From assembly GCF_004343035.1 (NCBI RefSeq), contig NZ_SMCQ01000025.1:1-42874 (forward strand): a stretch of DNA of 42,874 nt, read 5' to 3'. The translations under genes and the position numbers were made by a program. Every line of letters begins with the position of its first letter. The stretch's first letter is position 1. The notes under the pieces were generated by a model. That model was not told the DNA's origin. It saw only the letters and a program-made list of their open reading frames with translations, and searched no databases. Origin of the DNA: Longibaculum muris. Its GTDB lineage: Bacteria; Bacillota_I; Bacilli_A; Erysipelotrichales; Coprobacillaceae. This document shows positions 293 to 30,904 of the stretch, piece by piece.

Positions 293-321
293 TTGAAATA
301 TGAAAGAAAATGAACTATAAT
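293..321 (+). promoter_or_regulatory. Promoter of the MarR operon
   Basis: TTGAAA (293-298), a 17-bp spacer and a perfect TATAAT (316-321). The -10 box lies inside the left arm of the 42-bp palindrome at 315-356, so a bound repressor would block RNA polymerase. Confidence 0.75.
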
Positions 322-369: not shown

Positions 370-831
370 ATGGATAAAGTAGCAAAGAAGAATGCATATT
401 TGTATTGTAAATTTAGAGATGAGCAATTTGCTCTTTATGATGAGTATGCAAAAAGAAATGGACTATTAATGAATACTCTGCTTGTTTTAAATGTTCTTTA
501 TTATGCCAAAGAGGGTATGACACAAAAAGAAATATGTCAGCGTACATTTAATTCTAAGCAAACAGTGAATCTTATTATAAAAAATCTTTTAAAAGATAAT
601 TATGTAGAATTGAAGGAAGATACAAGCGATAAAAGAAATAAACTTGTTGTTATGACGAACGAAGGAAAAATGTATGCTAAAGTTCCGGTAACACATATTA
701 CATGGGCTGAGGACAAAGCAATGTCAATGTTTAGTGAAGAAGAACAAGAATTACTTATTCGTTTATCAAGAAAATTCACACAAAACCTGACAATGCTCAT
801 CAATGGAGGAGATGAAGACAATGATTATTAA
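370..831 (+). CDS. MarR-family transcriptional regulator
   Basis: A 153-residue winged-helix regulator. The HTH covers about residues 50-80 (GMTQKEICQRTFNSKQTVN) and is followed by the typical wing, where DTSDKRNK leads into VVMTNEG. ATG 370 is chosen because GGTGAT lies just upstream; TTG 358, GTG 361 and ATG 364 are in frame but leave no room for a binding site. It is the first gene of the operon and overlaps the next gene by 11 bases, so its likely targets are its own promoter palindrome and therefore the five genes behind it. The ligand is unknown; with two nitroreductases in the operon an electrophile or oxidant signal is plausible (inference). Confidence 0.88.
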   Translation: MDKVAKKNAYLYCKFRDEQFALYDEYAKRNGLLMNTLLVLNVLYYAKEGMTQKEICQRTFNSKQTVNLIIKNLLKDNYVELKEDTSDKRNKLVVMTNEGKMYAKVPVTHITWAEDKAMSMFSEEEQELLIRLSRKFTQNLTMLINGGDEDNDY

Positions 832-1771
832 TACTGGTGGTAGAACAGATACTGTACAATATTATACAAAATGGCTTCTAAAGCGTTTTGAGGAGGGATA
901 TGTTCTTTCAAGAAATCCTTTGTTCCCTAATAAAGTAACTCGTTATGAATTAACACCTGATAAAGTGGATTGTGTCCAATTTTGTTCAAAAAATTATAAA
1001 CCTATTCTAAATGATTTACCCAAGATCATAAAACGTTTTCATACTTATTTTCATTATACAATTACTGCATATGGCAATGATATAGAGCCTGGAGTGCCAA
1101 CCATTGAACAAAGTATTGAAACATTAAAAGAATTATCTTTGATTGTTGGAAAGCATCGTCTTGCTTGGCGATATGATCCTGTTTTATTAACTGAAAAATA
1201 TGCGATTTCATATCATTTGCAATGTTTTGAACGTATGACGAAAGAGATAGCCCCTTATGTTGATCGCTGCATTTTTAGTTTTGTGGAGATGTATAAAAAA
1301 CTTGAAAGAAATATGCCAGAGTTGATTCCACTTACAATTCAGGATGAAGATATACTGGCAAAAGGATTGGGCGAAATTGCTGCTAAGTATGGTATGATTT
1401 TGCAGACATGTGGAACAAATCATGATTATTCAAAATATGGTATTCTAAGTTCTGGCTGTATGACATTAGACATAATAGGTAAAGCAAATAATATTACTTT
1501 TAAGAAATTGAAACATAAAGGAATGCGTCAGGGATGTCATTGTATAGAAAGTAGAGATATTGGAGCATATGATACTTGCTTAAATGGGTGTAAGTATTGC
1601 TATGCAAATAAATATCCTAAAAAGGCTCATGAAAATTATCAATACCATGATCCAGATTCGCCACTTTTGCTTGGAAACATTAAAGAGACAGATACTATTG
1701 TACAAGGCGTTCAAAAAAGCTTTATAGCGAAAGATAAAAAGGGAAAGGGAGATACTGATGGAATTTATTGA
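821..1771 (+). CDS. DUF1848 family protein (radical SAM-like Fe-S cluster motif)
   Basis: A 316-residue protein. The C-terminal part has RQGCHC, then ESRDIGAYDTC, and CLNGCKYCYA, giving Cys253-x3-Cys257-x2-Cys260, the 4Fe-4S pattern of radical SAM enzymes. DUF1848 proteins share this layout; their reaction is not established. ATG 821 is preferred over ATG 803 because GGAGG (805-809) sits 11 bases before it and the sequence MIINTGGRTD is a natural family start. It overlaps the MarR stop and the next gene's start, so translation is coupled. A second radical SAM gene with the same cysteine spacing closes this operon. Confidence 0.8.
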   Translation: MIINTGGRTDTVQYYTKWLLKRFEEGYVLSRNPLFPNKVTRYELTPDKVDCVQFCSKNYKPILNDLPKIIKRFHTYFHYTITAYGNDIEPGVPTIEQSIETLKELSLIVGKHRLAWRYDPVLLTEKYAISYHLQCFERMTKEIAPYVDRCIFSFVEMYKKLERNMPELIPLTIQDEDILAKGLGEIAAKYGMILQTCGTNHDYSKYGILSSGCMTLDIIGKANNITFKKLKHKGMRQGCHCIESRDIGAYDTCLNGCKYCYANKYPKKAHENYQYHDPDSPLLLGNIKETDTIVQGVQKSFIAKDKKGKGDTDGIY

Positions 1772-2369
1772 TGTGGTAAACAAAAGAAAGACAAGTAGAG
1801 TTTTTTTAGATAAAGATGTTGATTTTGATTTAATAAAAGAAATCATTGAAGCTGGTATAAAAGCACCAACATGGGATCATAACAGGAATTGGCAATTTAT
1901 CATTTTGCGAACAAAAGAAGAAAAGGAGCACGCTTTTGGGTATGCTAAATGGATTGCTGATCATTTTGATACAGGCAAGTATGAAAATAAAAGACTAACA
2001 TTAGGACAGAAGATGTATGCGTATGCTATGCCTAAGCAATATACAATGTTGGTAGATTGCCCTTATGTTATTGTTCCAGTATTCAAATGGAAAAAATTAA
2101 ATGCAGAATATGTTAGTAAATTAAATCCATTTTCAAGCATATGGTGTGTTATTGAAAATATATTCCTTGCTGCAACGAATGTGGGATTAGGCTGTTCAAT
2201 GAGAATCCCTTTAAACAAAGAACATGATATAGTACGAGAAAAACTTGGAGTACCAGAAGGATATATTTTACCTGTTTTTATAGGAGTAGGTTATCCTGAT
2301 CCAAATGAAGTTGTTCTTGAGCAGTATGCACCAAAAGTTGAAGAAAAAATTCATATGGGTAAATGGTAA
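1758..2369 (+). CDS. Nitroreductase family protein (first copy)
   Basis: A 203-residue FMN-binding nitroreductase-fold protein. The N-terminus runs from EFIDVVNKRKTSRVF to an IIEAGIKAPTWDHNRNWQF stretch, the usual FMN phosphate and dimer-interface region. The C-terminal part has the GLGCSMRIP and PVFIGVGYPDP motifs. It probably reduces nitro compounds or quinones with NAD(P)H in the cytoplasm; the substrate is unknown. It overlaps DUF1848 by 14 bases and is followed nine bases after its stop by a second, diverged copy, so the pair looks like a tandem duplication. Confidence 0.85.
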   Translation: MEFIDVVNKRKTSRVFLDKDVDFDLIKEIIEAGIKAPTWDHNRNWQFIILRTKEEKEHAFGYAKWIADHFDTGKYENKRLTLGQKMYAYAMPKQYTMLVDCPYVIVPVFKWKKLNAEYVSKLNPFSSIWCVIENIFLAATNVGLGCSMRIPLNKEHDIVREKLGVPEGYILPVFIGVGYPDPNEVVLEQYAPKVEEKIHMGKW

Positions 2370-2392
2370 TATAAGAAGTGAGAGGAGAAAAT

Positions 2393-2986
2393 ATGGAGTT
2401 TAATGAAGTTATAAAGAAAAGAAGAATGACAAGGGAATTTTCAAATAAAGAAGTTCAATATTGTGATATAGAAGCGATTATAGAGGCTGGATCTTTAGCA
2501 CCTACTTGTAATCATTTAAGGCAATGGGATTTTGTTATTATTGATGATAGAATGATCATAAATATTCTTGCTAAATGTGTAAAAAATTATAGTTCAAGTG
2601 CAAGTAAGCCTAAAAATCCATATGAAGATATGTGTAATTATGCATTTCCTAGACAACAGTCAATGATAGAAGAAGCTCAATTTATCATATTGCCAATTAT
2701 TAAAGAAAATTCTTTATATAAAGCGACGAATATGTTTTCACTTATGCATTTTGCTGATACTTGGTGTGCTATTGAGAATATGTTTTTGAAAGCAACCGAA
2801 TTAGGTTTGGGTTGTTCTATGCATGTACCAAGTATGGAAGAACAAAATAATATATTTAATTTAATAAAATGTAAGAAAGGATATGCACTGACTTGTATTA
2901 TCGGTATAGGTTATCCAAGTGAAACAGCATATTATCCAGAGGAAATAGAATTTGATAGAAAAAGAATTCATAGGAACAGGTGGTAA
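2393..2986 (+). CDS. Nitroreductase family protein (second copy)
   Basis: A 197-residue paralogue of the preceding gene, sharing the N-terminal EFNEVIKKRRMTREF pattern, the EAGSLAPTCNHLRQWDF FMN-binding region, a W-C-A-I-E-N-M-F-L helix and the GLGCSMHVP and GIGYPSE motifs. ATG 2393 follows GAGAGGAG with good spacing; the in-frame ATG 2378 lies before that site and is less likely. Nitroreductases act as dimers, so the two neighbours could form a heterodimer (inference). The glycosylase gene starts seven bases after the stop. Confidence 0.85.
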   Translation: MEFNEVIKKRRMTREFSNKEVQYCDIEAIIEAGSLAPTCNHLRQWDFVIIDDRMIINILAKCVKNYSSSASKPKNPYEDMCNYAFPRQQSMIEEAQFIILPIIKENSLYKATNMFSLMHFADTWCAIENMFLKATELGLGCSMHVPSMEEQNNIFNLIKCKKGYALTCIIGIGYPSETAYYPEEIEFDRKRIHRNRW

Positions 2987-2992
2987 AAAGTC

Positions 2993-3814
2993 ATGTCTGA
3001 ATTACCTGAAATTGAAAGTGTTGTCTATTTTTTAAGACCTCATTTAGTTAATAGAACAATCAAAAAGGTTATACTTGAAAAAGAAAGTATTTTAGTCAAT
3101 TGTTCAAAATTAGAATTAATTGATCATTTAACCAATCGAACAATTATTGATTTTTCAAGAAGAGGAAAGATTTTAATATTTTCTCTTGATGATCAATCGA
3201 AATTATTTATTCACCCAAGAATGGTAGGACAACTCATAACCTGTTATAAAGAGTTTCCAGAAATTAAGCATACTCATTTTATAATGGAATTTGATAATGA
3301 TGAAGAATTTCGTTATATTGATGTAAGAAGGCTAGGGAAACTATACTACTTGAGAGATGGAGAAGATGTTTCTGTTACAGGAATAAATAAACTTGGATTA
3401 GAGTATAATAATTCTCAATTAGATATTGATTATTTAAAATTACATCTATCTCATTTCAAAAAGACAATTAAGGATGCTCTTTTAGATCAATCCATCATCA
3501 CAGGAATTGGAAATATTTATGCTGATGAAATACTGTTTTCAGCTGGAATTATTCCTAATAAAAAGGCAAAAGAACTGTCAGACGATGAAATAAATGACTT
3601 ATTTATTTCTATTCAAGACACTTTAGATAATTACATAGAAATTAATGAATCAGTAGGGTATGACGAATATTTGAAAGGAGAAGGCAGAGATTTTAAAAAC
3701 ATGCACATTTTAAGATTATATGATAGTGAGATTTGTCCAGCATGTGGGGACAAGCTTACAAGAATAAAAATATCATCTAGGACAACGGTATATTGTCCTC
3801 ACTGCCAAAAGTAA
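2993..3814 (+). CDS. Fpg/Nei-family DNA glycosylase with Ser in place of the catalytic Pro
   Basis: A 273-residue formamidopyrimidine-DNA glycosylase/endonuclease VIII family protein. It has the N-terminal ELPEIE block, RRGKILIF with the conserved lysine near residue 58, a helix-two-turn-helix region with SIITGIGNIYADEILF, and a C-terminal zinc finger in which CPACG and CPHC flank RTTVY. Length and domain order are complete. The striking point is the start: residue 2 is Ser (TCT), where this family has the N-terminal proline that attacks the damaged base; the adjacent Glu is kept. Lyase chemistry may be altered or lost. It sits inside the MarR operon rather than beside polA or coaE, the usual site of housekeeping mutM. 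Confidence 0.82.
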   Translation: MSELPEIESVVYFLRPHLVNRTIKKVILEKESILVNCSKLELIDHLTNRTIIDFSRRGKILIFSLDDQSKLFIHPRMVGQLITCYKEFPEIKHTHFIMEFDNDEEFRYIDVRRLGKLYYLRDGEDVSVTGINKLGLEYNNSQLDIDYLKLHLSHFKKTIKDALLDQSIITGIGNIYADEILFSAGIIPNKKAKELSDDEINDLFISIQDTLDNYIEINESVGYDEYLKGEGRDFKNMHILRLYDSEICPACGDKLTRIKISSRTTVYCPHCQK

Positions 3815-3816
3815 AT

Positions 3817-4695
3817 ATGACTATAAAAGAAGTGAACGTAAAAAGTATATTAACAAAATCAAATTTACCTGTATCTGATTATTCAGTTAACCCTTATATT
3901 GGTTGTATGCATGGTTGTAAATATTGCTATGCATCTTTTATGAAAAGATTTACCAATCACCCCGAGTTATGGGGAACATTTGTAGATGTCAAATATTGGA
4001 ATGTAATAAAAAAGCCTCAAAAATATTCAGATAAGGAACTATTTATAGGTTCAGTAACAGATCCTTATCAGCCTGTGGAAAAAGTTTATAAACGAACAAG
4101 GGAATTTTTAACACAAATGCAAGGGGTTCCTTGTAAAATAAGTATTGCAACGAAATCTGATTTAATTATTCGAGATTTAGATTTAATAAAGTCATTTCCA
4201 GATGCGCGTGTATCATGGTCAATTAATACATTGGATGAAAACTTTAGAATGAATATGGATAATGCAGTAAGTATAGAACGACGCTTTAAGGCTATGAAAA
4301 TCTTTCATGATGCTGGAATAAGGACAACGTGCTTTATATCTCCAATATTTCCAGGGATTACTGATGTGAAAGCTATCATACAGCAAGCAAAGAATTGCTG
4401 CAACTTAATTTGGTTAGAAAATTTAAATTTACGAGGCGAATATAAAAAAGTTGTTTTAGACTATATTTCATTGAAATATCCTCATCTTATTCTACTTTAT
4501 AATTCCATTTATAATAAAAATGACAAGAGCTATTGGTATATGCTGGATAAGGAAATAAAAGAGTTTGCCAAGCAGGAAGGTTTTATCTATGTATGCAATG
4601 ATGATACGATTAGCCATCCTTTTGAGGAGCCTCCAATTATAGTTAACTATTTCTTTCATGAAGAAATAAAACGTTCTGCAATGAATAGAAAGTAA
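3817..4695 (+). CDS. SPL-like radical SAM protein (COG1533 type)
   Basis: A 292-residue radical SAM protein. The cluster motif CMHGCKYCYA gives Cys30-x3-Cys34-x2-Cys37 near the N-terminus, after KSILTKSNLP...NPYIGC, the layout of spore photoproduct lyase-like COG1533 proteins. Later parts resemble the partial TIM barrel (FIGSVTDPYQPVEK, SIATKSDLIIRDLDLI). ATG 3817 lies two bases after the glycosylase stop; an in-frame TTG at 3793 inside the glycosylase gene is possible, as no strong binding site precedes the ATG. It is shorter than true SplB and I do not claim DNA photoproduct repair, although the neighbouring glycosylase makes a nucleic-acid substrate worth testing. Confidence 0.78.
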   Translation: MTIKEVNVKSILTKSNLPVSDYSVNPYIGCMHGCKYCYASFMKRFTNHPELWGTFVDVKYWNVIKKPQKYSDKELFIGSVTDPYQPVEKVYKRTREFLTQMQGVPCKISIATKSDLIIRDLDLIKSFPDARVSWSINTLDENFRMNMDNAVSIERRFKAMKIFHDAGIRTTCFISPIFPGITDVKAIIQQAKNCCNLIWLENLNLRGEYKKVVLDYISLKYPHLILLYNSIYNKNDKSYWYMLDKEIKEFAKQEGFIYVCNDDTISHPFEEPPIIVNYFFHEEIKRSAMNRK

Positions 4696-4717: not shown

Positions 4718-4774
4718 TTATTATTGTTTCTTAAGAGAGCAAAAGAAAACTACAAAAACGAGAAAAAGCCTTTA
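4718..4774 (+). repeat. Dispersed repeat, copy A
   Basis: About 57 bp starting TTATTATTGTTTCTTAAGAG matches 19116-19172 in the same orientation at roughly 48 of 57 positions by eye. No coding frame explains it. In this copy it runs into the operon terminator. Confidence 0.6.
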
Positions 4775-4790
4775 TTTAAGGGCTTTTTTT
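4763..4790 (+). terminator. Terminator of the MarR operon
   Basis: AAAAAGCC pairs with GGCTTTTT across an AT-rich loop and ends in seven T. It lies 70 bp after the radical SAM stop codon. Confidence 0.8.
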
Positions 4791-7212: not shown

Positions 7213-7830
7213 ATGAATGAGTATATTGTTGATTTAGAGCAAGAATTATCTTTGATAGAAAATGGTTTTAAAGTGGAAGAAAGCAGAGCCTTAAGTGATT
7301 ATAAATCTCATGATAATGAATTTATTAAAAAGTTGGCATTTTTAGCATACAAATCTATGGTATATCAAGTAAGAATGTATGCCGTATTTCTTTTTGGATA
7401 TCTATCAGAAGATGAAAATATTTTAGTTTTCATGAGAGATACAGTTTCTAATGATGATAACTGGAGAGTTCAAGAAATATTAGCAAAATCATTTGATGAG
7501 TTCTGTAAGAAAAAAGGATACGAAAATGCTATTCCAATAATTGATGAATGGTTGAAAAACAGCAATCCTAATACTCGAAGGGCAGTTACAGAAGGTTTAA
7601 GAATTTGGACGAGCAGACCTTATTTCAAGGAAAATCCCACGGAAGCGATTGAACGATTAGCTGATTTGAAAGAGGATTCCAGCGAATATGTTAGAAAGTC
7701 GGTAGGTAACGCTTTAAGGGATATAAGTAAAAAATATCCAGATCTAATTAAAACCGAACTGGATAGTTGGAAATTGGAAAGCAAAGAAATCAATCAAGTA
7801 TATAAATTGGCAAATAAGTTTGTTAAGTAA
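7213..7830 (+). CDS. HEAT-repeat protein, DNA alkylation repair-like
   Basis: A 205-residue all-helical protein with repeated HEAT-like units: AYKSMVYQVRMYAVFLFGYL, NWRVQEILAKSFDEFCKK, NTRRAVTEGLRIWTSRPYF and YVRKSVGNALRDISKKYPDL. The pattern matches the AlkC/AlkD group of DNA alkylation repair glycosylases (COG4335/COG4912), which use HEAT repeats to hold damaged DNA. At 205 residues it is shorter than AlkD (about 230) and much shorter than AlkC, so it may be a reduced or non-catalytic member. It stands alone between module copies 2 and 3, and AGAGGGG precedes the ATG. Confidence 0.7.
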   Translation: MNEYIVDLEQELSLIENGFKVEESRALSDYKSHDNEFIKKLAFLAYKSMVYQVRMYAVFLFGYLSEDENILVFMRDTVSNDDNWRVQEILAKSFDEFCKKKGYENAIPIIDEWLKNSNPNTRRAVTEGLRIWTSRPYFKENPTEAIERLADLKEDSSEYVRKSVGNALRDISKKYPDLIKTELDSWKLESKEINQVYKLANKFVK

Positions 7831-10680: not shown

Positions 10681-10700
10681 ATAAATAAGAGGTGATTATT

Positions 10701-11975
10701 ATGTTAATTCAATTTAATTTTAAAAATTTTAAATCATTTAGGGATGATGCAACACTAGACTTATCGGCAACTAAGATAAGTGAGTTTAATGATAGAGTAA
10801 TAGAATTAGGAAATGAAAAGATATTACCAGTTGTTGCAATATTTGGAGCAAATGCCAGTGGTAAGTCAAATGTACAGCAGGCGTTTTCATACATGGTATA
10901 TTATGTTTTACGTTCATTTGCGTTTGGTGGGGATGCTGATGAGAAAAAAAGCAAAAGTGAATTTATGCAACCTACACCATTTTTATTTGATAGTACCAGC
11001 AAAGATGCACCATCAACGTTTGAAGTTTATTTTATTGGAGAAGAAAAGGATAAGTATAGACAGTACAATTTTGGGTTTAGTGTAGATAAAAAAGGTGTTT
11101 GTGAAGAATGGCTTAATGTTTGTGCAAAAAGTGCAAGAGGAAAATTTAAACCAATATTTTATAGGAATAGAGATAATAATGAATTAGATTTAAGTGGTTT
11201 ACCCAAGAAGGTTCATGATAACATAAAAACTTCATTACAGAATGAGACGCTTATTGTATCTTTGGGTGCAAAATTAAAAGTTGAGAAATTAAAGTATATT
11301 CGCGACTGGTTCTTGAAGCATGAAATGGCTGATTTTGGAGATCCTTTTGAAAATTTATTTCTTTCTAGATATACACCTGATGGTTTTTCAGATAATGAGA
11401 ATGTTAGAAAAAAAGTAGTAGACTATTTTTCGTCTTTTGATAATTCCATCATTGATTTTAAGGTTGAAAAACTAAAAGAAGATGAAGATGATAACGAACA
11501 TTTAAAAATTAATACAGTCCATAGATTAATTAATTCTGATGAAACTGTTACTTTACCTTTGCAGGAGGAGTCAGCAGGAACGTTAAAAATGTTTGCCTTA
11601 TATCTTTCTTTACAGGAAGTCATGGAAACAGGTGGTGTACTATTTGTTGATGAGTTAAATTCTAGATTACATCCATTACTTGTGAGAAACTTTTTAATCA
11701 ATTTTCTTGATTCTTCCATCAATAAAAATCATGCTCAAATTATTTTTACTACTCATGATTCATGGACATTATCAAATAATTTATTAAGACGAGATGAGAT
11801 TTGGTTTACAGAAAAAGATCGTGATGGTATTTCATCGTTGTACTCATTAGCTGATTTTGTAAATGAAGATGGTCAAAAAATAAGAAAAGATGAGAATTAT
11901 GAAAAAAATTATCTTTTAGGTAAGTATGGGGCAATTCCAGAATTGAAGTCAATGATAGTGATGGAGGATGAATAA
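10701..11975 (+). CDS. AAA15/COG1106 ATPase, RloA/AbiLi-like
   Basis: A 424-residue SMC/ABC-type ATPase of the OLD-like AAA15 group. It starts with IQFNFKNFKSFRDD, then Walker A GANASGKS near residue 53, an insert rich in charged residues, a signature-like EESAGTLKMFAL, Walker B GGVLFVDELN and a TTHD switch motif. ATG 10701 follows AGAGGTG. The next gene is RloB-like, three bases after the stop; this pairing is that of RloA-RloB and of the lactococcal abortive-infection system AbiL, in which the ATPase senses phage and the TOPRIM partner is the effector (known for related systems, inferred here). Confidence 0.82.
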   Translation: MLIQFNFKNFKSFRDDATLDLSATKISEFNDRVIELGNEKILPVVAIFGANASGKSNVQQAFSYMVYYVLRSFAFGGDADEKKSKSEFMQPTPFLFDSTSKDAPSTFEVYFIGEEKDKYRQYNFGFSVDKKGVCEEWLNVCAKSARGKFKPIFYRNRDNNELDLSGLPKKVHDNIKTSLQNETLIVSLGAKLKVEKLKYIRDWFLKHEMADFGDPFENLFLSRYTPDGFSDNENVRKKVVDYFSSFDNSIIDFKVEKLKEDEDDNEHLKINTVHRLINSDETVTLPLQEESAGTLKMFALYLSLQEVMETGGVLFVDELNSRLHPLLVRNFLINFLDSSINKNHAQIIFTTHDSWTLSNNLLRRDEIWFTEKDRDGISSLYSLADFVNEDGQKIRKDENYEKNYLLGKYGAIPELKSMIVMEDE

Positions 11976-11978
11976 TTT

Positions 11979-12626
11979 ATGGGAAGAGGAGATAGATGAG
12001 GCAACAGAAAATCTAGAGAACAATATAGAAAAAGAGGAGTTCCAGAGTTAGGATATTATTATATTGTAACTGATACTGATCAAACGGAAAAGAATTATTT
12101 AGAAGGATTAAGGGACTCTATACCAGAAAAATTAAGAGGAAAGATTGTGATAAAGGTTACTAAATCGAGGACAGTAGATTTAGTAAAAACATGTAAAGAA
12201 GGAGCATCTCTATATCCACAATACAGTGAACCGTGGATTATTCTTGATCGTGATCAAGTAAAAGATTTTGATAGTATTGTAAGGAATGCTCAGCAAAATG
12301 AAATTCATGCTGGATGGTCAAATCCATGCCTTGAAATTTGGTTGCATGCTTATTTTGGTAGTATGCCTAATATTCAAGATTCTGTTAGTTGTTGTAATAA
12401 ATTTGCAACTGAGTATGAGAGAAGAATATGTCAAAAATATGATAAAGCAGAAAAAGATTTGTATAAGAAATTATGTGAATTTGGAAATGAAGAAAATGCG
12501 ATTAAGATAGCTCAACAAAAAAGGAAGCAATGCATTGAAAATGGATTATCCGTTCCTTCTAAAATGATACCTTGTACAATGGTAGATGAATTAATAAAGG
12601 AAATAAGACAGAAGTCACAAGAATGA
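11979..12626 (+). pseudogene. RloB/AbiLii-like TOPRIM gene with a TGA at codon 7
   Basis: ATG 11979 opens MGRGDR, then TGA at 11997-11999, after which the same frame stays open to 12626 (215 codons in all). The arginine-rich start (GNRKSREQYRKRG) and later motifs are those of RloB: YYYIVTDTDQTEKNYLEGL in the first TOPRIM position, SEPWIILDRD with the DxD motif, and GWSNPCLEIWL. The sequence before and after the stop belongs to one protein, so the stop is a recent lesion or is bypassed. The only internal start with a purine-rich site, GTG 12147, would drop the first TOPRIM motif. Without RloB the pair should be inactive. Confidence 0.75.
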
Positions 12627-30101: not shown

Positions 30102-30145
30102 ATGAAAAAGCGTAAGATAAAGTGATATCTGGAGAGGGCATGAAT

Positions 30146-30904
30146 ATGAATAAAGAATTGTATGATATGATATTGAAAAGAAAATCATTTCATTTATTTA
30201 GAAATGTTGGAAATCATAACATTTCTATAGATGAGATTGAAAAAATTAAACAAATGTATGAAACTTTTGTACCTTTGTATCCTGATATAAAAACAACAAT
30301 CAAGATTGTAGCAGCCAATGAAACAACTTGTAAACGTGGACAACAGTTTTGTATTTTGTTATATAGTGAAAAGAAAGATAACTATTTACAAAACATTGGG
30401 TATCTTGGTGAACAATTAGATTTATATTTGGTTTCACAAAATATAGGAACATTATGGTTTGGCATAGGTAAAACTGATGAACCCTCATTTGAAGGTCTTG
30501 ATTTTGTGATTATGATAGCTATGTCAAAAATTGATGATGAGAAAAAATTTCGTAAAGATATGTTTAAAAGCAAACGTAAGACTATGGATGAAATCTGGCA
30601 AGGAGAACTGATCAGTGGTGTTAGTGAAATTGTGAGATTTGCTCCGAGTGCCTGTAATACACAACCATGGATTGTAGAACATGTAGATAACAAACTTTAT
30701 GTTTATCGATATAAAAAACCAGGGAAAAGAGGAATTATGCCAGCAGATAAAGTTGTATTTTATAATCAGATTGATATGGGAATATTCTTATGCTTTCTTG
30801 ACTTATGTTTACAACATACAAAAAATTCTTATGAAGTAACATTATTTATAGATAACGGATCACAAGAAGAAAAAATAATGAATGCAGAATATAAATTGTT
30901 ATAA
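30146..30904 (+). CDS. TM1586-type nitroreductase-fold protein
   Basis: A 252-residue protein of the putative nitroreductase TM1586 group, in which a single chain contains two nitroreductase-like halves. The first half has ELYDMILKRKSFHLFRNV and GYLGEQLDLYLVSQNIGTLW; the second has SEIVRFAPSACNTQPWIVEH and FYNQIDMGIFLCFLDLCLQH. ATG 30146 is eight bases after GGAGAGGG; ATG 30140 is too close. Flavin binding is likely; the substrate is unknown. Driven by module copy 10. Confidence 0.78.
   Translation: MNKELYDMILKRKSFHLFRNVGNHNISIDEIEKIKQMYETFVPLYPDIKTTIKIVAANETTCKRGQQFCILLYSEKKDNYLQNIGYLGEQLDLYLVSQNIGTLWFGIGKTDEPSFEGLDFVIMIAMSKIDDEKKFRKDMFKSKRKTMDEIWQGELISGVSEIVRFAPSACNTQPWIVEHVDNKLYVYRYKKPGKRGIMPADKVVFYNQIDMGIFLCFLDLCLQHTKNSYEVTLFIDNGSQEEKIMNAEYKLL

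Follow-up and report, generated by a model that had tools for sequence, protein, structure and literature searches.

An operon of Longibaculum muris that joins a predicted circularly permuted radical SAM protein to a mobile pair protein B, two flavoproteins and an Fpg-like glycosylase

The window analysed here, a stretch of 42,874 nucleotides from Longibaculum muris, is the entire contig C25 (NZ_SMCQ01000025.1) of a 3.17-Mb genome. Starting ~370 bases from the contig end, it contains an operon of six plus-strand open reading frames (370-4695) with intergenic gaps of -14 to +23 nt, the MarR/DUF1848 and DUF1848/NTR1 gene pairs being overlapped. Protein families were assigned with Pfam and NCBIfam profile models, and both the reading frames and the matches agree with a preceding sequence-only reading, which had described six tightly packed, partly overlapping genes with these identities. 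PB is used throughout as a label for the product of 3817-4695, a member of the radical S-adenosylmethionine (SAM) mobile pair protein B family. The genes and the elements that flank them are the following.

370-831, plus strand: MarR-family repressor (PF12802, E 2.2e-11)
821-1771, plus strand: DUF1848 protein, predicted circularly permuted radical SAM enzyme (PF08902, E 2.5e-95)
1758-2369, plus strand: nitroreductase-family flavoprotein 1, NTR1 (PF00881, E 1.8e-18)
2393-2986, plus strand: nitroreductase-family flavoprotein 2, NTR2 (PF00881, E 1.4e-19)
2993-3814, plus strand: Fpg/MutM-like DNA glycosylase with Ser2 for Pro2 and an altered lesion-loop region (TIGR00577, 216 bits, cut-off 203.3)
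3817-4695, plus strand: PB, COG1533 radical SAM protein, 'radical SAM mobile pair protein B' (TIGR04470, 426 bits, cut-off 410)
293-321, plus strand: sigma70-like promoter, TTGAAA-17-TATAAT, 11 of 12 consensus positions
315-356, no strand: perfect 42-bp palindrome, predicted MarR operator, 21-nt arms 100% complementary
328-343: core of the palindrome, AGTCAATTAATTGACT
about 4763-4790, plus strand: terminator-like hairpin with a T-run, read by eye and absent from the scan output

Two of the products, DUF1848 and PB, carry the CxxxCxxC motif that had been noticed previously (C253-C257-C260 and C30-C34-C37, respectively). For DUF1848 this is consistent with its description as an iron-sulfur protein, but the description falls short, since the protein is most likely a circularly permuted radical SAM enzyme rather than merely a second protein of that kind. 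Seven of its cysteines are invariant in 37 of 37 diverse sequences: those in C253-x3-C257-x2-C260, which read like a radical SAM motif, and C197, C213, C239 and C241, which could provide the ligands of an auxiliary cluster. The motif is placed C-terminally, and not on the N-terminal side of the barrel as expected of the radical SAM superfamily. Profile comparison of DUF1848 with COG1533 (hhalign) returned two matching segments in inverted order, residues 246-266 with PB 23-43 at a probability of 94%, and residues 28-193 with PB 78-257, the latter being weak by itself (16%). When the C-terminal part was placed ahead of the rest, a single alignment of 217-220 columns covered both segments, in comparison with 59 columns for the native order and 93-185 for three control permutations. 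Just the alignment length rises on permuting, the hhalign score being no higher because both segments are found separately in either order.

The AlphaFold2 model of DUF1848 is confident (pLDDT, the predicted local distance difference test, of 93) and displays a partial TIM-barrel fold. In structural alignment (VIA) the top 13 rows, and 17 of the best 18, were radical SAM entries with Z scores of 8.4-10.5, including MqnE, biotin synthase, HydG, RlmN, spore photoproduct lyase, PFL activase, viperin and others. Residue 1 of the model aligns well past the cysteine motif of these enzymes, at residue 134 of spore photoproduct lyase and residue 71 of PFL activase. Since such Z values exceed the usual background only moderately, the assignment depends on motif, profile and fold pointing the same way. 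Foldseek alone was uninformative, as a permuted fold would lead one to expect: its best matches were assorted TIM barrels of low TM-score. No relative was found when the PDB was searched with a DUF1848 profile.

The genome also carries a second, solitary DUF1848 gene (G000:C28:601-1380; L001, L059), as most relatives do, for which no conserved context was found in 20 relatives. This solitary chromosomal occurrence speaks against the operon being an anti-phage or mobile-element conflict system, as could be suggested by a match to the PADLOC model RTasDUF1848 (E 1.9e-36) and by the presence of DUF1848 and PB relatives in viral contigs. The PADLOC system, which places DUF1848 beside defence reverse transcriptases, shares the DUF1848 domain with the window, but the genomic setting is another one and the operon includes no reverse transcriptase, nuclease or toxin. 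Its control by MarR together with nitroreductases is, moreover, unlike known defence islands, and we regard a role in conflict as very improbable. In a group of viral or mobile contigs (L140-L152), DUF1848 has large serine recombinases and a methyltransferase-like protein as neighbours.

Conservation of the neighbourhood was evaluated by scanning GTDB genomes with the PB alignment, which provided 80 named loci (labelled with L numbers) with flanks of up to 10 kb on each side; the sample is not random, as these loci hold the PB proteins most closely related to that of the window. Fpg, nitroreductase and DUF1848 recur beside PB in many lineages, in line with the earlier suggestion of a single functional unit, and the co-occurrence check proposed at that time, now carried out in other genomes, indicates that adjacency of the glycosylase and the spore photoproduct lyase-like gene is not confined to this one. 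All Fpg matches (14 of 14) and all nitroreductase matches (31 of 31, in 26 loci) within 10 kb adjoin PB on the same strand, as do seven of the eight DUF1848 matches, one of these seven being a 33-residue remnant (L107) and the exception lying 3 kb away (L096). More than half of the 80 loci have none of the three partners. Gene orders are shuffled among loci, as follows.

Window: MarR-DUF1848-NTR-NTR-FPG-PB
L139: MarR-DUF1848-NTR-PB-FPG-HhH-GPD
L066: MarR-DUF1848-PB-FPG-HhH-GPD
L067 and L126: MarR-NTR-NTR-PB-FPG
L109: MarR-NTR-FPG-PB-NTR
L081: MarR-FPG remnant-PB-DUF1848-NTR
L105: MarR-DUF1848-PB

A tree of 88 PB proteins puts the minimum number of presence changes at 11 for Fpg, 9 for nitroreductase and 6 for DUF1848. 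The tree intermingles hosts from Bacillota, Spirochaetota, Bacteroidota, Actinomycetota, Desulfovibrio-type bacteria and others, which points to horizontal spread. The conserved linkage of the cassette genes is well supported. Each family is common alone, and a solitary DUF1848 and a housekeeping Fpg are encoded in this same genome, as could be expected if unrelated redox and repair genes had come together by chance; nevertheless, adjacency in many lineages, in shuffled order and with a common operator, leaves such an origin next to no credibility, and the neighbourhood statistics rule it out. Additional features were recorded around PB in these loci. An esterase-like hydrolase, mostly directly upstream, is a recurrent partner in 14 of the 80 loci and absent from the window; the MarR-NTR-PB cassette of L048 (G034:C1:1317892-1318722) is a decaying copy whose PB has an internal stop; and macrodomain (ADP-ribose) proteins occur near PB or DUF1848 in L036, L074 and L101, a Roseburia plasmid carrying such a protein together with Sir2 and a nitroreductase.

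Regarding the control region, the palindrome overlaps the promoter-like element, and its perfect arms of 21 nt compare with a longest arm of 11 nt in 2000 shuffles of the region. Promoter-type matches are no more frequent in the region than in shuffles, the promoter being called because of where it lies with respect to the operator and the start of the gene, and not from match counts. Of 18 homologous MarR genes, the one in the window and those of 17 other loci, 15 are preceded by the motif AGTCAA-N4-TTGACT (up to 2 mismatches); its density upstream of MarR is 4.1 per kb versus 0.047 per kb in the remainder of these loci, and the genes bearing it include some whose products are just 40% identical to the window MarR (L066, L105). 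Thus, the regulator and its predicted operator travel with the cassette. Five loci have another MarR type and lack the motif. A palindrome placed over the promoter and conserved with the regulator, as observed here, would be consistent with a MarR autorepressor acting at a predicted operator.

The radical SAM mobile pair system, as defined in NCBIfam, consists of protein B (TIGR04470), protein A (TIGR04471) and a MarR regulator, its canonical order on plasmids of Lachnospira eligens, Selenomonas and Bacteroides being (MarR or MBL-fold protein)-pairA-pairB. The window shares with it a protein B above the curated cut-off, a MarR gene placed first and followed by radical SAM genes, tight packing, and a distribution pointing to plasmids and horizontal gene transfer. 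On the contrary, protein A is absent from the operon and has no match across the entire genome, DUF1848 being present instead, and nitroreductases and Fpg are added. The window PB forms a separate clade within the protein B family, pairA was not found in any of the 80 loci of this clade, and the slot directly after MarR is occupied by DUF1848 in L066, L105 and the window. The regulator also differs: the mobile-pair MarR model is not among the 14 families matched by the window MarR in the NCBIfam scan, and in blastp it falls outside the group of the canonical mobile-pair regulator. Because pairA is missing both from the genome and from the 80 loci, the operon belongs with its relatives to a branch of the mobile pair whose protein B changed partners, DUF1848 being one alternative.

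Fold comparison places PB closest to spore photoproduct lyase (SplB, COG1533), with which it shares the CxxxCxxC-Y motif. This enzyme is the best structural match (VIA) of the PB model, with a Z score of 17.5 in comparison with 15.1 for the next protein, and both align collinearly from end to end in native order over 247 residues with a root-mean-square deviation of 3.6. PB is, nonetheless, not a spore photoproduct lyase. Its C30, C34 and C37 presumably correspond to C90, C94 and C97 of the solved lyase, and at a constant offset from the motif the nearly invariant Val80 of PB would occupy the position of the hydrogen-donor Cys140, which is thus probably missing. Hosts of PB are, unlike those of the lyase, mostly gut anaerobes that include non-spore-formers.

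The Fpg-like protein matches the domain over its full length, H2TH and zinc finger included, and scores above the curated cut-off. In the alignment, Glu3, the hairpin Lys, the GIGN loop, the zinc finger Arg and its four Cys are kept, while the catalytic Pro2 is replaced by Ser2 in the window, L064 and L109. This subclade, with few members and seen exclusively beside PB, also differs from Fpg/MutM in having Leu for Phe at the wedge, and the lesion-loop region changes from GGTTIRSYTSSLG in housekeeping MutM to NESVGYDEYLKGEG in the window Fpg. The loop variant was considered as a cassette-specific mark and rejected, as stand-alone Fpgs of some Clostridia (L300, L301), which lie beside nifS/thiI-like genes, share the loop type. 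In NEIL3, an N-terminal Val forms the Schiff base and, by analogy, the N-terminal Ser amine of the window Fpg could still form one. In the sample used, all cassette Fpgs but that of L087 group in a clade of their own, separate from the housekeeping MutMs of the order. The window genome has a second, ordinary Fpg besides the cassette copy; in 9 of 11 cassette genomes tested, some of them incomplete assemblies, the cassette Fpg is the sole one found. In a GTDB sample of Clostridia, Fpg was detected at the threshold used in 8 of 291 genomes, and the cassette may therefore be a main source of Fpg repair activity for its hosts. A second glycosylase family, HhH-GPD (PF00730), is present in two relatives, L139 and L066, its closest NCBIfam model being a 3-methyladenine DNA glycosylase.

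Replacement of Pro2 could also mean, as far as the residue tells, that the lyase activity of this subclade was lost and binding kept. The Fpg-like protein would then be a reader of lesions or modifications, and the operon would be devoted to modifying RNA, nucleotides or cofactors in normal physiology, in line with matches of both the PB and DUF1848 models to RNA-modifying radical SAM enzymes such as RlmN. Against this, P2-type cassette Fpgs retain the catalytic residues and are often the sole Fpg of the genome, and the patchy, mobile distribution is hardly that of core physiology, making this explanation improbable in our estimation.

As for NTR1 and NTR2, a role as BluB (5,6-dimethylbenzimidazole synthase) was discarded, their scores on TIGR02476 being 38.8 and 39.3 bits, respectively, versus a cut-off of 150. 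A third nitroreductase, of TM1586 type, is encoded elsewhere in the window (30122-30904). Two other neighbouring features are a HEAT-repeat protein (7213-7830), ~2.5 kb downstream of the operon, that matches the DNA alkylation repair family PF08713 (AlkD-like), and an AAA-type ATPase followed by a RloB-like protein (10692-12626) that match the AbiLi/AbiLii defence pair.

Gene identities, linkage in shuffled orders, the common operator motif and the predicted folds are directly supported. Considering them together, we favour, with about an even chance of its being right, a MarR-repressed, horizontally spread lesion-response cassette, namely a mobile-pair variant having DUF1848 instead of pair protein A. 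A reactive, probably electrophilic or nitro/quinone-like compound would free MarR from the promoter-overlapping palindrome, allowing the six genes to be transcribed together. The compound or its adducts might then be reduced by the two flavin nitroreductases, and damaged bases excised by the Fpg-like glycosylase, joined in relatives by HhH-GPD. Lesions beyond the reach of simple excision would be left to PB and DUF1848, which would reverse or trim them by 5'-deoxyadenosyl-radical chemistry. The sequence-only reading had similarly proposed that a reactive compound is sensed and a nucleic acid repaired, a proposal made plausible by the two glycosylase families, the spore photoproduct lyase-like fold and the predicted MarR operator, its chemistry being the conjectural part. 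More tentatively, and somewhat short of an even chance, the permuted radical SAM DUF1848 with its auxiliary cluster, its spore photoproduct lyase-like partner, the flavin reductases and the glycosylases would make up a pathway of gut anaerobes for the repair of DNA lesions, mobile, under MarR control and so far unrecognised.

DNA is considered the target because two unrelated glycosylase families (Fpg and HhH-GPD) were recruited, because of the fold of PB, and because of precedents in the SOS network. One of these involves COG4277, which we take to be a radical SAM protein. Its two-gene operon with a uracil-DNA-glycosylase (COG1573-COG4277) is described as a putative repair pair of that network, and SplB/COG1533 is itself SOS-regulated in several species (PMC8565304). 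As in that operon, a DNA glycosylase is encoded here beside a putative repair partner, but the glycosylase and radical SAM families are others, regulation is by MarR instead of LexA, and nitroreductases are found just in the present cassette.

Several points weigh against this proposal. No SOS link was found for the cassette. PB scores 21.7 bits on the spore photoproduct lyase model TIGR04070, whose cut-off is 400, and together with Val80 this implies that the lesion, if any, is probably other than that of the lyase; activity of the window Fpg is uncertain because the catalytic Pro2 is lacking. Radical chemistry, DNA as the substrate, the nature of the inducer and the division of labour are all inferred. 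In addition, 66 of the 80 PB loci have no Fpg, many having an esterase or transporters instead, a composition that fits small-molecule chemistry equally. The radical SAM enzymes and nitroreductases could accordingly serve to inactivate a small toxic compound, with Fpg cleaning up collateral damage in some lineages. PB is found with nitroreductases in 26 loci versus Fpg in 14 and with the esterase-like hydrolase in as many, while ABC transporters (L076), a MATE-like exporter with an FMN reductase (L110) and a nearby chloramphenicol acetyltransferase (L035) are in keeping with xenobiotic modification, as is the fact that MarR regulators often sense small phenolic compounds. Such a role would, however, leave unexplained both the two unrelated glycosylase families directly in the cassette and the lyase-like fold of PB, and we consider it possible but unlikely.

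The earlier statement that no such pathway is known needs to be qualified: the function is unassigned, but the core gene already has the NCBI family name 'radical SAM mobile pair', with no function attached. To our knowledge no function has been assigned to the mobile pair, and a search of the literature collection used returned no paper on DUF1848, on 'radical SAM mobile pair' or on the combination of radical SAM, nitroreductase and glycosylase. The recurrent partners and the common operator described here offer a concrete handle on this widespread pair of plasmids and gut bacteria, and the regulated promoter could be used for finding the inducing compound. Should the circular permutation of a radical SAM fold prove true, it would be of note in the evolution of enzymes, and a common domain whose function is unknown would gain a chemistry.

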